A DNA stretch of 55,999 bases, from positions 1-55,999 of the forward strand of contig JAJZXI010000003.1 of NCBI GenBank assembly GCA_021806545.1. The letters are read 5' to 3'. Positions 16,906-38,094 of the stretch are shown here, piece by piece. Source of the stretch: Actinomycetes bacterium (lineage in GTDB: Bacteria > Actinomycetota > Acidimicrobiia > Acidimicrobiales > Acidimicrobiaceae). How positions within the stretch are numbered: position 1 is the first letter of the stretch; every line of letters starts with the position of its first letter. The notes beneath the pieces were generated by a model. It made no database searches. It was not told where the DNA came from and saw only the letters and a list, made by a program, of their open reading frames with translations. The translations under genes were made by a program, and so were the position numbers.

Positions 16906-18441
16906 TCATGGCGTCTCCGTATTCGACGCCTTCTCGCTGGCGCGTAGCAGCCGATTGAGGGCGTTGAGATAGGCCTTCGCCGATGCTTCAACGATGTCGG
17001 TTGAGATGCCACGACCCGATACCTCGGCATCCTCGGTGCGCAGCGTCACCACCACATCTCCGAGCGCGTCCACGCCACCGGTGACGGATGCTACCGTAAA
17101 GCCCGTCAGCTGTGCCATCATGCCGGTCGCATCCTGAAGAGCCCTGCCGATAGCATCGACCATACCGTTCCCAGTCGACTCTGCGGTAACGGGTTTGCCA
17201 TCGATTGCGATGGACACCTTGGCGCGGGCGGGCTCGCCCGATGTCGCTTGGACCGATAATGCCTGCAACTCAAACCGCTCGGCAACGGTAACCCCGAGCT
17301 CGTCGGCGACGATAGCCTCGAGATCAGCCGCCGTGATCTCCGTTTTGCGGTCAGCCATCTCTTTGAATCGCTCGAACGCGGCGTTGAGCGCATCGCCGGC
17401 AAGATCAAATCCCATGTCCTTGAGGGTGGATGTGAAGGCGTGACGTCCCGAATGCTTCCCAAGGATGATCTGAGAACCCTGCTGGCCGACGCTCGTGGCA
17501 TCGATGACCTCGTACGTGCTGCGGTCGGCAAGTACTCCATGCTGGTGGATGCCGGACTCGTGCGCAAAGGCATTCCGTCCAACGACAGACTTGTTGTACT
17601 GCACTGGGTAACCAGTCAAGCGCGCCACCAGGCGCGATGCCTTGGCAAGCTCCTCGGTGTGGATCTGGGTTCCCAGGCCCTTGAAAAGGTCAGCCCTCAC
17701 GCGTAGGGCCATCACAATCTCCTCGAGTGCGGCGTTGCCCGCGCGCTCTCCAATGCCATTGATGCAGCACTCTACCTGGCGAGCCCCACTAGCTACCGCA
17801 GCGAGTGAGTTAGCCGTTGCCAGACCAAGGTCGTTATGGCAGTGGCTCGAAATCACATAATCACCATTGACGTTGCGACGCACCTCTTCGATCATACGGC
17901 CAAACTCGGAGGGGATCCCATAGCCGACGGTATCAGGGATATTCAGCGTGCCCGCGCCATTGTCAACCGCCACCTGTAGGACTTGGTAAAGGAAGTCCAA
18001 CGGGGTGCGAGTCGCGTCCTGTGGCGAGAACTCGACATCATCAGTGAAGCTTCGAGCATGCGCCACCGACGCCTTCACCTCCTCGAGCACTGTCTCGTTC
18101 GTCATCTTGAGCATGTGAGTGAGATGGGACGGGGAGGTTGAGATAAAGATATGGATACGCGCCTGTTCAGCGTCGCGCAGGGCCGACCAGCAACGGTCGA
18201 CATCGCGTAGCTGTGTCCTTGACAATGCCGCGATGGTAGGACCCTGTACTCGCCGCGCAATGGCCTGCACGGCCTCGAAGTCACCTTGGGACGCTACCGG
18301 GAAACCAGCCTCGATATAGTCGACGTTCAGCCGTGCCAACTGCTCCGCTATCTCGAGCTTCTCGAGCACATCGAGTGAAATCCCCGGAGACTGCTCCCCG
18401 TCGCGCAATGTCGTGTCAAAGATAATAACCTGCTCGTCCAT
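16906..18441 (-). CDS. leuA: 2-isopropylmalate synthase
   Basis: 511 residues, the usual length for the form with a C-terminal leucine-binding regulatory domain (about 385-505). The catalytic barrel has FDTTLRDGEQSPGISL with the metal-binding Asp, SSHCHNDLGLATANSLAAV with the metal His, and NGIGERAGNA. It condenses acetyl-CoA with 2-oxoisovalerate in the first step of leucine synthesis. The ATG at 18441 follows GAGGAGC. A leucine leader peptide and terminator lie upstream between serA and leuA, so expression is likely controlled by Leu-tRNA charging. The neighbouring leuB, leuC and leuD are 5-9 kb away in separate transcripts. Confidence 0.95.
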   Translation of the reverse strand: MDEQVIIFDTTLRDGEQSPGISLDVLEKLEIAEQLARLNVDYIEAGFPVASQGDFEAVQAIARRVQGPTIAALSRTQLRDVDRCWSALRDAEQARIHIFISTSPSHLTHMLKMTNETVLEEVKASVAHARSFTDDVEFSPQDATRTPLDFLYQVLQVAVDNGAGTLNIPDTVGYGIPSEFGRMIEEVRRNVNGDYVISSHCHNDLGLATANSLAAVASGARQVECCINGIGERAGNAALEEIVMALRVRADLFKGLGTQIHTEELAKASRLVARLTGYPVQYNKSVVGRNAFAHESGIHQHGVLADRSTYEVIDATSVGQQGSQIILGKHSGRHAFTSTLKDMGFDLAGDALNAAFERFKEMADRKTEITAADLEAIVADELGVTVAERFELQALSVQATSGEPARAKVSIAIDGKPVTAESTGNGMVDAIGRALQDATGMMAQLTGFTVASVTGGVDALGDVVVTLRTEDAEVSGRGISTDIVEASAKAYLNALNRLLRASEKASNTETP

Positions 18442-18554: not shown

Positions 18555-18582
18555 GACCCTCCGATCAGCGATCAAGAGGGTC
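18555..18582 (-). terminator. intrinsic terminator of the leuA attenuator
   Basis: GACCCTC pairs with GAGGGTC around a 14-nt interior that can extend the stem through GATC/GATC. TTTTTATTT follows on the transcribed strand. It lies between the leader peptide and leuA, where a regulated terminator belongs. Confidence 0.85.
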
Positions 18583-18584
18583 AA

Positions 18585-18609
18585 GGGCGATCACCGTCGG
18601 TGATCGCCC
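18585..18609 (-). promoter_or_regulatory. leuA attenuator first hairpin
   Basis: A perfect 11-bp stem with a 3-nt loop (GGGCGATCACC/GGTGATCGCCC). Its 5' arm begins at the last base of the leader peptide's TAG, so a ribosome at the stop would cover it. GCGATCA in its 5' arm can also pair with TGATCGC inside the terminator, giving a mutually exclusive fold. Confidence 0.75.
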
Positions 18610-18647
18610 TACCTAAGAAGAAGTCCTGTAACTGCCAAAGTTCCCAT
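18609..18647 (-). CDS. leuL: leucine leader peptide of leuA
   Basis: A 12-codon ORF encodes MGTLAVTGLLLR and stops with TAG. It has three consecutive CTT leucine codons just before AGG-TAG, and the stop overlaps a stable hairpin followed by an intrinsic terminator and leuA. That is the architecture of ribosome-mediated attenuation, in which slow translation at scarce Leu-tRNA alters folding of the downstream RNA. The ATG lies 12 nt after the serA stop. A TAGGTT hexamer 9 nt upstream fits an actinobacterial -10 for a leaderless or nearly leaderless transcript. It is far too short for ordinary gene finding. Confidence 0.85.
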   Translation of the reverse strand: MGTLAVTGLLLR

Positions 18648-32907: not shown

Positions 32908-33930
32908 TTAGCCCCCTGAGACCTCGGTCAGCTTGGACTTTGTCGACAGGAACGGCATCATCGACCGAAGCGTAGCGCCCACCTGTTCTACCGCCTGTCC
33001 CTTCGCCTGCTCGCGAAGTTGATTGAAGCGGGGTCGCCCTGCGGCCATCTCGTCGATCAACTCGCGAGCAAACGAGCCGTCTTGGATCTCGGCGAGAATG
33101 CGCCGCATCTCGGCCCGAGTAGCTTCGGTCACAACCCGTGGCCCACGCGTTAAGCCTCCGTATTCTGCAGTCTCCGAAACCGAGAACCACATGCCAGCAA
33201 GGCCATTTTCATAGAGGAGGTCGACGATCAACTTCATCTCATGAAGGCACTCGAAGTACGCCGACTCCGGTTGGTACCCTGCCTCAACGAGCGTGGTGAA
33301 CCCAGCCACGATCAGCTCACTCAATCCACCACAGAGGACAACCTGCTCACCGAAGAGGTCGGTCTCGGTCTCCTCCGCGAACGTGGTATCGAGTACTCCC
33401 GCCTTGGTAGACCCGATGCCCCAAGCGTACGAGAGTGCCAAAGCATGGCCCACGCCCTCTGGATCGTTCTCCACCGCAATGAGTGACGGTACGCCACCGC
33501 CCTCTTCGTAGGTCCTGCGAACAAGATGCCCTGGACCCTTCGGCGCTACCATGATGACTGCGACATCGTCGGGCGGGACGATCTGCTGATATCGAATATT
33601 GAAACCATGGGCAAAACCAAGCGTCTGCCCCTTGTGCAGGTGGGGAGCGACCTGCTCATCATAGATCTGCTTTTGAACCGTATCAGGGGCGAGGAACATG
33701 ATAAGGTCAGCCCACGCTACCGCCTCAGGCACGGAGAGCACCTCGAGGCCACTCGCCCATGCCTTCTCTCCCGACGCTGAACCGGGACGGAGCGCCACAC
33801 GCACCTGCACCCCAGAATCAGAGAGGTTCAACGCATGGGCATGCCCCTGAGAGCCATATCCGATAATCGCAACACGAGTGCCACTGATGATGGATGAATC
33901 CGCATCCTTGTCGTAATACATCTGTGCCAT
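32908..33930 (-). CDS. ilvC: ketol-acid reductoisomerase
   Basis: 340 residues. [33 protein letters not shown] shows the NADPH-binding motif (GYGSQG); [28 protein letters not shown] and [10 protein letters not shown] with metal-binding Asp/Glu follow. It is the class I short form. It makes dihydroxy acids from acetolactate or acetohydroxybutyrate. ilvN ends 2 bp upstream, and the unknown membrane gene starts 4 bp after its stop. Confidence 0.96.
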
Positions 33931-33932
33931 TG

Positions 33933-34508
33933 CTATGATATCTTTCCCTTCTTCGGTCGTCGTGCGGGCTTGGGCAACTTGCTGAGTGCAATCCTACCGG
34001 TCCGTTGAAGCTCAATCACACCGAATTCCGCCAAGAAGGCCTCGACATCGTCAAGCTTCTCAGGAGAAAGGGCAAAAACGACGGTCAAGCGGTCGAGCGA
34101 GACATCGATAATCTCACCGTGAAATATCTCCACCAGCTCCATCACCTTGGACCGGGCGCCAGCCTCAGCATTGATCGTCGCAAGCATGCACTCATACTCC
34201 AATGCATCGGCTGGATCGATCTCGGTGATCTTAATGACGTTGATGAGTTTGTGGAGTTGTTTGGTGATCTGCTCGAGCGGCACCGACTCCACATCTACCA
34301 CGATCGTCAACCGCGAGAAACGCTCATCATCGGTCGGCGCTACCGCCAGCGAATAGATGTTATAGCCGCGTCGAGAGAACAGTAGCGACACACGAGCCAA
34401 CACACCGGCTCGGTTCTCCACCAGTACGCTCAAGATGTGATGACGGCCACCAACATGCGGGCGGATCGAGCCGATAGGCACGAGATTTGAGGATCGCTCT
34501 GCCATCAT
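33933..34508 (-). CDS. ilvN: acetolactate synthase small (regulatory) subunit
   Basis: 191 residues with an N-terminal ACT domain ([37 protein letters not shown]) and a C-terminal ALS_ss domain ([26 protein letters not shown]). It binds Val and stimulates IlvB. The start is one of two adjacent ATGs (34508, 34505) that overlap the ilvB stop. A basic tail [11 protein letters not shown] ends the protein. Confidence 0.95.
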
Positions 34509-36211
34509 CGCCCCCTGATTTGATGTGGCGGAAGAACAATATCGTCGTTTGGCGCACCAGCGGGAACCATAGGGTACACCTTCTCGAAGGTGTCCACCCT
34601 GAAGTCGATCACGACTGGCCGATCATCGATCTGGTTCGCCTTTTCGATCACGGGATCGACCTCGCTCCCCTGATCGACGCGGAAACCAACGGCTCCCATC
34701 GCCTCCGCCCACTTCACGTAGTCGGGAAGGTCAGGCGAGAGGAAAACCTCCGAGTAGCGCTCCTCGTAGAACATCTCCTGCCACTGGCGTACCATCCCGA
34801 GGTATCCATTGTTTAAGATGGCCACCTTGATAGGGATGCGCTCTGCGGTCGCGGTCACCAACTCCTGGGCGGTCATTTGGAAGCAACCATCCCCGTCGAT
34901 TACCCAAACCGTGCTCAGTGGACGACCTGCCTTCGCACCAATTGCCGCTGGCACCGCGAACCCCATTGTTCCAAGGCCGCCGGAGTTGATCCAGGTATTG
35001 GGTGATTCAAAGCGAAAATATTGCGAGGCCCACATCTGGTGCTGGCCCACACCCGAGACCACGATGGTGTCGACCGGTGCGAGCGCTGAGATCCGCTCGA
35101 CGACATACTGGGGCTTGATCGCCGCACCAGCCTCCGCAGGCTCGTAGGAGTAAGGGTACTGCTCCCTCCATGCATTGAGCTGTGTCAACCAGGCCGAAAT
35201 ATCTCGGCGCTCGCTGGGCAAGAGACGAACGATCTCAGGAATCACCGACTTAACATCACCAACGATAGGTACGTCAGGTCGGCGCACCTTTCCGAGCTCG
35301 GCTGGGTCGATATCGACATGGATGACCCGTGCTTTTGGAGCAAAAGCATCGACCTTCCCGGTGACGCGATCGTCGAAGCGAGCACCCAACGCGATCACGA
35401 GGTCGGCCTCCTGGAGCGCGGTGACCGCGGTGAAGTTACCATGCATCCCCGGCATCCCTAAGCACAGCGGGTGCGAATCTGGCAGAACACCACGTGCCAT
35501 GAGCGTGGTGACGACCGGAATGCCTGCACGATCCACCAAGGTCCGCAGCTCATTGGAGGCGTCTCCTCGGATGAGGCCTCCGCCCGCGTAGATAACCGGG
35601 CGCGCTGCGCTCGCGATCAGGGCAGCGGCCTGTTCGATCATCTTTGGGTGACCTTTGACTGTTGGCTGGTAGCCAGGAAGATCGAGTCGGCGCGGCCAGT
35701 ACCATTCCATCGTGTCGTTGGCGACATCCTTTGGTAGGTCAACTACCACTGGCCCTGGTCGACCGGTGGTAGCGACATGGAAGGCCTCCGCGATCACGCG
35801 GGGAATATCTCGAGCTTGAGTGATGAGCCAGTTATGTTTGGTCACCGACATGGTGATTCCCGTGGTATCAGTCTCTTGAAAGGCGTCGGTTCCGATCGAC
35901 GTGGTAGCCACCTGGCCGGTGATCACTACGATAGGGATCGAATCAACATACGCATCCGCCACCGCCGTAACGATATTGGTAGCTGCCGGGCCACTGGTCA
36001 CGATCGCAACCCCAGGCCGACCAGTCGCCTGGGCGAAACCCTCAGCTGCATGCCCTGCGCCCTGTTCATGACGGACGAGGATATGTCGGATAGGCGATTC
36101 AAGCAGCGGATCATAAACCGGAAGGATTGCCCCACCAGGGAGACCAAATACCGTCTCGACCCCCTCCATCTCGAGGGACTTGATCAGCGCCTGCGCTCCC
36201 GTCAATCTCAT
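34505..36211 (-). CDS. ilvB: acetolactate synthase large subunit
   Basis: 568 residues from the ATG at 36211, which follows AAGGAGGCGGTC. The N-terminal thiamine-PP domain has [16 protein letters not shown] and [21 protein letters not shown] with the catalytic Glu position. The C-terminal domain has the ThDP/Mg motif [18 protein letters not shown], then [13 protein letters not shown]. It makes acetolactate or acetohydroxybutyrate. A leader peptide and terminator upstream mark transcription attenuation; ilvN and ilvC follow with overlaps or gaps of 2 bp. Confidence 0.96.
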
Positions 36212-36290: not shown

Positions 36291-36315
36291 AAGACCTCCC
36301 GACGAGGGAGGTCTT
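36291..36315 (-). terminator. intrinsic terminator of the ilvB attenuator
   Basis: A perfect 10-bp stem AAGACCTCCC/GGGAGGTCTT with a 5-nt loop, with TCTTTTC at its end on the transcribed strand. It directly abuts the upstream hairpin at 36316 and lies 79 nt before the ilvB ATG. Confidence 0.85.
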
Positions 36316-36343
36316 GGGCACGACGCTACGCGGAGCCGTGCCC
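36316..36343 (-). promoter_or_regulatory. ilvB attenuator first hairpin
   Basis: GGGCAC pairs with GTGCCC and the stem extends with one mismatch to about 9 bp. Its 5' arm begins at the last base of the leader peptide's TAG, the same geometry as in the leuA leader. Confidence 0.75.
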
Positions 36344-36381
36344 TAACGAAGGAGTACTACCAGCGAGCGTCGATCGATCAT
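36343..36381 (-). CDS. ilvL: branched-chain leader peptide of ilvB
   Basis: A 12-codon ORF encodes MIDRRSLVVLLR and stops with TAG. It carries CTG GTA GTA CTC CTT, five consecutive Leu/Val codons, just before CGT-TAG, then a hairpin and a terminator before ilvB. This is the architecture of ribosome-mediated attenuation by Leu and Val tRNA charging, with one Ile at position 2. The ATG lies 27 nt after the ilvD stop, and TATGAT sits 7 nt before it, so a leaderless start is likely. It is too short for ordinary gene finding. Confidence 0.85.
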   Translation of the reverse strand: MIDRRSLVVLLR

Positions 36382-36388
36382 GACAAGT

Positions 36389-36394
36389 ATCATA
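36389..36394 (-). promoter_or_regulatory. candidate -10 of the ilv leader
   Basis: TATGAT lies 7 nt before the leader ATG, the spacing expected for leaderless actinobacterial transcripts. No clear -35 is seen 16-19 nt upstream. Confidence 0.5.
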
Positions 36395-36408: not shown

Positions 36409-38094
36409 CTATCCGCCAGTTACAGCGCCGATTTCTGCCCCCTTGACCAGAAGAGCATACTTGCCAAGCGCGCCTTCGGTATAGCGAGCCTTCGCCGGCG
36501 TGAAGACCGAGCGCCGGCGCTCGAGCTCTTCGTCGTCGACCAGAAGCTCGATCGAATGCGTTGGCACATCGATGACGATCCGATCCCCGTCTTGCACCAA
36601 ACCGATCGGACCTCCGTCTGCTGCCTCAGGCGCGACGTGCCCGATGCAAAAACCATGCGTACCACCAGAGAAGCGTCCGTCGGTTATCAACGCGGCATCA
36701 TGCCCCCGGCCCGCACCCTTCATCGCGCCGGTCACTGCGAGCATCTCGCGCATACCTGGGCCACCCTTTGGCCCCTCGTACCGGATGATCACGACGTCAC
36801 CGGCTTGAATGGATCCTGCGAGAATCGCGTCGAGGGCAGCCTCTTCGCGATCAAACACCCGCGCGTGACCATCGAAGTGCTCCTGATCAAGGCCAGCAAC
36901 CTTGACGACCGAGCCCGCCGGTGCAAGAGATCCTCGTAAGACCGCGATACCGCCCACTGCATGGAGCGGCTGATCTAGATGGTGGATCACCTCACCGTCG
37001 GGTCGTGGCGGATCATAGCGGCTAAGCTCCTCAGCCAAGGTTCGCCCAGTGACCGTAAGACAATCCCCGTTGAGTAGGCCAGCATCGAGCAGTTCAGCGA
37101 GCACCACGGGAATCCCACCGATCCGATCGAGATCAGTCATGTGATACTTGCCATGGGGCTTGGTGTCGGCAAGATGCGGCACCCGCGCAGCGACACGATT
37201 GAAGTCGTCGAGGGTCAACTCCACCTTCGCCTCATAGGCGATTGCCAGCAGGTGCAGGACGGCATTCGTCGAGCCCCCAAGCGCCATCACCGCGGCGATT
37301 GCATTCTCGAAAGCCCCCTTCGTCAGGATCTGGCGCGGCGTAATACCTTGGGACAGCAGGTTCATCACCGCTTGGCCCGCCTCGAAGGCGATATCCTCGC
37401 GGCGCCGATCCACTGCAGGGGCTGAAGCCGAGCCGATCTGTGCCAGGCCCAGCGCCTCTGACACCGAGGCCATCGTATTGGCCGTGTACATCCCTGCACA
37501 CGACCCCTTGGTTGGGCAGGCATTGCGCTCGATGTCAAGCAATCGCTGATCGTCAATGCTGCCCGCCGCATGGGCTCCTACCGCCTCAAAGACGCTGACA
37601 AGATCCAGTGTCTCTCCGTGAAATCGCCCCGGAAGGATGCTGCCACCGTAAACAAACACCGCGGGAAGATTGAGACGAGCCGCAGCCATCATCATACCTG
37701 GCAGGGACTTATCACAGCCGGCCAAGGTCACCATGGCATCGAAACGCTCGGCATGCATCATCAGCTCTACCGAGTCAGCGATGACCTCGCGCGACACCAG
37801 TGACGAGTGCATGCCTTCATGGCCCATCGATATGCCGTCTGAGACCGCGATGGTACCAAACTCAAGAGGTACACCCCCAGCAGCCCGAACACCGGCCTTT
37901 GCCCGTTGTGCAAGGTCAGAGAGCACCAAATTGCAGGGGGTCACCTCGTTCCACGATGACGCAATCCCGATCTGGGGTTTGGAAAAGTCCTCGTCATTGA
38001 GGCCCACGGCGCGGAGCATCGCCCGAGCAGGAGCCCGGCGCGGCCCCTCGGTTACCTCCTGGCTACGAATCCTGATTGACCGTGTCTCACTCAT
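36409..38094 (-). CDS. ilvD: dihydroxy-acid dehydratase
   Basis: 561 residues. [20 protein letters not shown] and [21 protein letters not shown] provide two of the Fe-S ligand Cys; [19 protein letters not shown] is the C-terminal signature. It dehydrates dihydroxy acids to 2-oxo acids for Val and Ile. It lies upstream of the ilvB leader on the same strand, so its transcript can enter the attenuator. gatB ends 99 bp upstream. Confidence 0.96.

Follow-up and report, generated by a model that had tools for sequence, protein, structure and literature searches.

What lies between ilvD and the ilvBNC genes at this locus, and could it set expression of the operon according to amino acid supply? In the window, by which we mean the whole stretch of 55,999 nucleotides analysed here, the gap from ilvD to ilvB on the minus strand contains, in order, a TATGAT hexamer, a 12-codon ORF, a hairpin (P1) and an intrinsic terminator hairpin (P2), all listed in Table 1. 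From comparison with related sequences, we give a probability of roughly 0.8 to the reading that this arrangement is a ribosome-mediated transcription attenuator of ilvBNC, reading charged Val-tRNA (mainly through GUA) and Leu-tRNA. The ilvB gene is taken to start at the ATG at 36211, which makes the longer TTG-start ORF of the program's list unnecessary. An earlier, sequence-only reading of this DNA had placed the leader ORF 27 nt past the ilvD stop codon, with five Leu/Val codons in succession, a TAG that opens a hairpin, a perfect 10-bp stem terminator directly behind it, and TATGAT 7 nt ahead of the leader ATG. The distance from ilvD agrees to the base, the five codons are those given in Table 1, the fold and the coordinates confirm both hairpins, and the hexamer is at the position described.

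Table 1. Features of the ilvB and leuA loci in the window, with the basis of each assignment.
Feature	Positions	Strand	Basis
ilvD	36409-38094	-	NCBIfam model above cut-off
Weak -35-like hexamer CTGGCG, 19 nt 5' of the -10 box	36414..36419	-	Sequence; partial match only
-10 box TATGAT, 7 nt upstream of the leader ATG (36381)	36389..36394	-	Sequence and enrichment in relatives
Leader ORF MIDRRSLVVLLR-TAG, 12 codons, probably leaderless	36343..36381 (stop 36345-36343)	-	Sequence and relatives
Putative regulatory codons CTG GTA GTA CTC CTT	36349..36363 (two GTA at 36355-36360)	-	GTA enrichment in leaders
Hairpin P1, 5' base = G of the TAG stop	36316..36343	-	P1 in relatives, covariation, folding
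Hairpin P2, predicted intrinsic terminator; 10-bp stem, 5-nt loop, then U residues	36291..36315	-	Folding, covariation
ilvB, acetolactate synthase large subunit	34505..36211	-	NCBIfam TIGR00118/NF005860 above cut-off
ilvN, acetolactate synthase small subunit, second gene of ilvBNC	33933..34508	-	NCBIfam TIGR00119 above cut-off
ilvC (presumed from family knowledge of its sequence), third gene of ilvBNC	32908..33930	-	ORF
leuA-element leader ORF MGTLAVTGLLLR-TAG, codons CTT CTT CTT	18609..18647	-	R1 match and sequence
leuA-element P1, starting in TAG	18584..18610	-	Folding
leuA-element P2 terminator, then TTTTT	18555..18582	-	Sequence and folding
leuA	16906-18441	-	NCBIfam model above cut-off

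The leader ORF reads ATG ATC GAT CGA CGC TCG CTG GTA GTA CTC CTT CGT TAG. Because runs of five Leu, Val or Ile codons end 6 of the 1763 short-ORF starts in the whole window, the peptide by itself is weak evidence. We compared the regions upstream of ilvB at about 100 order-level loci, the named ones belonging to the Acidimicrobiales or close to them; the sequences behind all counts given here are related to one another, and many come from MAGs. A total of 87 leaders passed the ORF filter, typically ending in L-V-V/L-V/I-T followed by the stop; the filter demanded a Leu/Val/Ile run, which biases amino acid counts, not the choice among synonymous codons. The codon choice is firmly established by this comparison: GTA accounts for 143 of 217 leader Val codons (66%) versus 110 of 3149 (3.5%) in the ilvB coding sequences at those loci (Fisher p about 1e-124, a value inflated by the relatedness of the sequences). 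As GTA represents 10% of the Val codons in the source genome (13 window genes), it is not very rare there, a point against the attenuator. Codon -4 relative to the stop is Val in 73 of the 87 order-level leaders and GTA specifically in 68. Given that changes at the third base of this codon are silent and that the base is part of neither P1 nor P2, selection on the GTA codon itself is the simplest reading.

Free drift of the leader codons among relatives, which the sequence-only reading had named as counter-evidence, was thus not seen at codon -4. Its expectation that LLR-TAG and the stems would be conserved held for the stems; LLR-TAG is limited to close relatives, and the key conserved feature is instead a GUA three to five codons before the stop. 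Leaders of ilvB in actinobacteria further removed, among them a MRTRILVLGKRVG type, also carry CTC GTA CTT/CTC. In leaders of this type (L185, L186 and others), the ORF runs beyond CTC GTA CTT, and the stop codon is not where P1 begins.

A covariance model (R1) built from 71 of the leaders gave a full-length match before ilvB at 97 of 99 loci, 71 of which formed the training set, and the matches include loci missed by the ORF filter. The leader is also retained at 24 of 29 loci without an upstream ilvD, and hence the element belongs to ilvB. Conservation across the Acidimicrobiales removes chance as an explanation of the element.

Both hairpins and their spacing are likewise established across the relatives. 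At the ilvB locus P1 adjoins P2 with a gap of 0, and P2 reads AAGACCTCCC-TCGTC-GGGAGGTCTT, its perfect stem being followed by TT. The folding energy of P1 and P2 together is -35.6 kcal/mol, against -18.2 +/- 2.9 for shuffled sequences (z = -6.1; 0 of 200 shuffles as good). All 76 leaders examined have P1, and in 70 of them the stem begins to pair at nucleotide 1, 2 or 3 of the stop codon. The loops of P1 are often C-rich. The distance from the 3' end of P1 to P2 is 0-6 nt in the 76 leaders; that the gap is never negative is partly by construction in this survey, a constraint of which the truncated folds described below are independent. In a sequence-only alignment (A1), 89.7% of the cells of the P1+P2 structure can pair, 104 cells carry double changes versus 32 in shuffles and at most 38 in slid versions of the structure, and the covariation score is 0.300 versus 0.044-0.114 when slid. 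The core of P2, CCTCCC/GGGAGG, is kept in most lineages, while base pairs of P2 covary. Of perfect hairpins of at least 8 bp followed by a T-run, the window has only two on both strands, P2 being one. We also considered whether the P2 stem might be a generic terminator of the source genome, and rejected this, the pattern CCTCCC-N3-6-GGGAGG occurring at only two loci there.

Upstream of the ORF, the position of the promoter is similarly fixed. When 61 leaders were aligned on the ATG, NANNNT, its T falling between -7 and -10, was strongly enriched, TTG was common from -39 to -35, and no Shine-Dalgarno signal was seen before the ATG of these aligned leaders. A conserved promoter at a fixed distance from the ATG, together with the lack of a Shine-Dalgarno signal, supports the leaderless transcript that the sequence-only reading had proposed, and transcription is predicted to start at the leader AUG or immediately beside it.

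The ilvB element had also been described as sharing the same geometry with another, a claim borne out by the element before leuA at 18555-18647 on the minus strand, which is probably what was meant. Its P1 and P2 together fold at -39.7 kcal/mol (z -6.7). Elsewhere in the order, class and phylum, R1 matches were identified before ilvB, leuA, leuS, the citramalate synthase gene (cimA) and leuB-ilvE. Citramalate synthase feeds isoleucine synthesis. The residues encoded by codons -5 to -2 change with the downstream gene, with Ile at 24 of 31 cimA loci, Leu at 21 of 24 leuA and 6 of 8 leuS loci, and Val, Leu or Ile before ilvB. No other evidence speaks as strongly for a leader that reads specific aminoacyl-tRNAs as this tracking of the downstream gene by the putatively sensed residues, and amino-acid-specific, ribosome-mediated transcription attenuation is, on these comparisons, a well-supported reading.

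Individual loci add detail. Runs of the Ile codons ATC and ATT occur in the same chassis ahead of citramalate synthase at eight loci (L139, L141, L142, L143, L153, L171, L172 and L173), about 300 nt inside the oriented end, and leuS, encoding leucyl-tRNA synthetase, is preceded at two (L169 and L170) by a chassis with the Leu codons CTG CTT CTG. In a single distant family of actinobacteria, three genomes (L160, L166 and L168, at about position 300) also gave R1 matches before isocitrate-lyase-like genes. At these loci the small ORF ends in Val(GTA)-Ser-x-x-stop, placing GTA at -4 without a branched-chain run, and P1 and P2 follow.

Several other functions for a structured region at this position must be weighed. 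P1 and P2 lie directly 3' of ilvD and might form its end terminator, the small ORF being incidental. This is hardly credible given that the element is kept at the ilvD-less loci counted above, that the ORF is conserved at the level of codons with its stop codon within P1, and that leuA, cimA and leuS are preceded by the same element with matching codons; the ilvD-less loci and the codon-matched elements before other genes in essence refute it. Control could alternatively be translational, with the Leu codons CUCCUU sequestering the ilvB Shine-Dalgarno sequence AAGGAG in the manner of the LEU element proposed for leuA in other Actinobacteria. These six bases are indeed paired in the minimum free energy fold of the whole leader and could pair in the nearest relatives as well, but leaders of distant relatives lack CTCCTT though P1, P2 and GTA persist, and a strong predicted terminator separates the two sites, leaving sequestration very improbable. 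A strongly structured and conserved 5' region before a branched-chain amino acid (BCAA) operon would also suit a ligand-binding riboswitch or a T-box in place of leader-peptide control. An Rfam search, however, returned no family at the gathering score (the best weak match was Phe_leader, 18.5 bits versus 55; ilvB-II may not be in Rfam 15), the conserved parts are codons and two plain helices, with no conserved unpaired core, and the sensor codons vary with the downstream gene, all of which make such a regulator very improbable.

A more serious competitor concerns how the attenuator would work. In a classical three-segment attenuator, a base-paired antiterminator would form here as a pseudoknot or as a short-lived intermediate that equilibrium folding misses. 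Experimentally studied relatives have been interpreted in this way (PMC11857589, PMC10272879, PMC13236596), and the G-rich 3' arm of P2 is a possible pairing partner of the C-rich P1 loops. Equilibrium folding of 81 sequences in three states (no ribosome, or a ribosome whose A site holds GTA or the stop codon) nonetheless revealed no base-sharing antiterminator. P2 was dominant in 81 of 81 sequences at all ribosome positions, folding at a mean probability of about 0.98 in each of the three states, so that RNA folding alone predicts termination always, which also speaks against attenuation at this locus. Before the 3' arm of P2 exists, its 5' arm was 12-14% paired with a stalled ribosome versus 32% once the ribosome had reached the stop, whereas an antiterminator requires the opposite. 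Pairing of the P1 loop with P2, as in ilvB-II-type models, was no better than with shuffled or swapped loops (-3.86 observed, -3.96 when swapped between species). We regard the three-segment scheme as possible but rather unlikely. The attenuator proposed by the sequence-only reading is accordingly upheld by codon conservation and by the match of codons to genes, while the classical antiterminator that it implied was not found by folding.

Under the ribosome-mediated attenuation that we favour, the transcript would start at or adjacent to the leader AUG and a ribosome would initiate on the leaderless 5' end. When the amino acid is ample, the ribosome would reach UAG and mask the 5' arm of P1, leaving P2 free to fold and to end transcription. 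When Val (or Leu) is scarce, it would pause at GUA, three to five codons before the stop, with its leading edge at the base of P1; P1 could then fold fully, and ilvBNC would be read through. A ribosome halted at GTA extends about 13-14 nt downstream, and 62 of 75 leaders have 12-15 nt between GTA and the first paired nucleotide of P1, such that P1 would be able to fold at the edge of the stalled ribosome. We infer that leader translation, termination at P2, induction on starvation and antagonism of P2 by P1 together make up this response. In the version that we prefer, P1 would serve as a retractable spacer, the folding of which draws the stalled ribosome near P2 and hinders P2 from folding. 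The stop codon is 25-40 nt from P2 (median 32) in the leaders compared, and the stalled A site at GTA is 11-23 nt from P2 once P1 is folded (median 15); the path between ribosome and P2 would thus shrink from a median of 32 nt to about 15 nt. In Escherichia coli, a terminator is almost silent with a ribosome a few nucleotides upstream and recovers when the distance exceeds about 27 nt (PMC4824070). It is from this repression by a nearby ribosome, together with the spacing of GTA, P1 and P2, that an action of P1 through proximity of the stalled ribosome is proposed; it is a tentative suggestion, and no direct precedent for the step was found in the literature searched. As a whole, the complete scheme, in which P1 is ribosome-gated and forms solely on stalling three to five codons ahead of the stop, a ribosome within about 15 nt sterically blocks P2 with no base-sharing antiterminator, and across several lineages of the phylum one chassis carrying Val, Leu or Ile codons controls ilvB, leuA, leuS and citramalate synthase, may be correct but is doubtful.

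The element shares much with known regulators. Enterobacterial trp/ilv-type attenuators likewise combine a leader peptide, regulatory codons and a terminator, with the position of the ribosome as the signal, but differ in operating through overlapping, mutually exclusive hairpins and Shine-Dalgarno-led initiation. Leaderless short ORFs acting as amino-acid-responsive attenuators are reportedly known also from mycobacteria, in the polycysteine uORFs of Canestrari et al. 2020, which differ in using cysteine codons. A conserved terminator hairpin is lacking from the cys leaders of mycobacteria (PMC1262725).

Also related are the ilvBNC leader of Corynebacterium glutamicum and the ilvB-II leaders (PMC11857589, PMC10272879), which resemble the present element in having a BCAA leader before ilvB (leaderless or nearly so there, probably leaderless here), CUU and GUA codons, and an intrinsic terminator, the response to valine being that of C. 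glutamicum. Transcription of the C. glutamicum leader begins one nucleotide from the start codon, the leader peptide is MTIIRLVVVTARRLP, and CUU and GUA are its control codons (PMC11857589). In those systems the uORF spans P1 and a base-sharing antiterminator (the H2 hairpin of C. glutamicum) has been proposed, whereas here P1 has its first base within the stop codon and shares no bases with P2, and no such antiterminator could be detected. A response to BCAA supply is known for equivalent leaders of C. glutamicum (PMC11857589) and Mycobacterium tuberculosis (PMC13236596). In ilvB1NC of the latter, changing LVVI to AAAA abolishes induction and GUA is the modelled stall codon (PMC13236596). That leader, compared here by description only, is alike in its BCAA uORF, in a stall-dependent hairpin masked by a ribosome at the stop and in a terminator before ilvB, but differs in its mutually exclusive terminator and antiterminator and in a 166-nt leader treated as not leaderless (PMC13236596).

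Seliverstov et al. 2005 (PMC1262725) described candidate ilvB leader peptides in actinobacteria, encoded by short ORFs that contain Ile/Val/Leu runs and are accompanied by terminators, and the signature used there, a BCAA-run uORF with a terminator directly before ilvB in an actinobacterium, is found at the present locus. Their set was without Acidimicrobiia, contained no conserved P1 and assigned leuA to regulation by the LEU pseudoknot; antiterminators were not identified, attenuator elements were noted to be absent from such leaders, and the mode of regulation of these ilvB leaders was called unclear (PMC1262725). Mutation results on Streptomyces ilvB leaders are contradictory, and the S. 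coelicolor ilvB leader, which was unresponsive to codon substitution, stands against attenuation by leader translation (PMC1262725), a reading that the sequence comparisons nevertheless render very probable for the element described here.

This kind of switch is therefore already known in Corynebacterium, Mycobacterium and Streptomyces, and the GUA control codon, named before in Corynebacterium (PMC11857589) and M. tuberculosis (PMC13236596), is an extension, not a discovery. No report was found, in a literature searched mostly without subscription journals, of the order-wide spread, the stop-anchored P1, the undetectable antiterminator or the exchange of codons across ilvB, leuA, leuS and citramalate synthase. 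Searches returned no paper on leader-peptide attenuation under the stem Acidimicrobi, and citramalate synthase with leader peptide gave one irrelevant-looking paper; such absence from the literature is weak evidence of novelty.

The ilvB gene and its attenuator attract current interest in drug work on M. tuberculosis (PMC13236596), and how actinobacterial ilvB leaders work without a visible antiterminator is a question dating from 2005. The conserved P1, starting on the stop codon at a fixed distance from GUA and abutting P2, is a concrete candidate for the missing element and one that can be put to mutation. The swapping of sensor codons according to the gene that follows, in turn, offers natural evidence of a modular chassis that would sense individual branched-chain aminoacyl-tRNAs.
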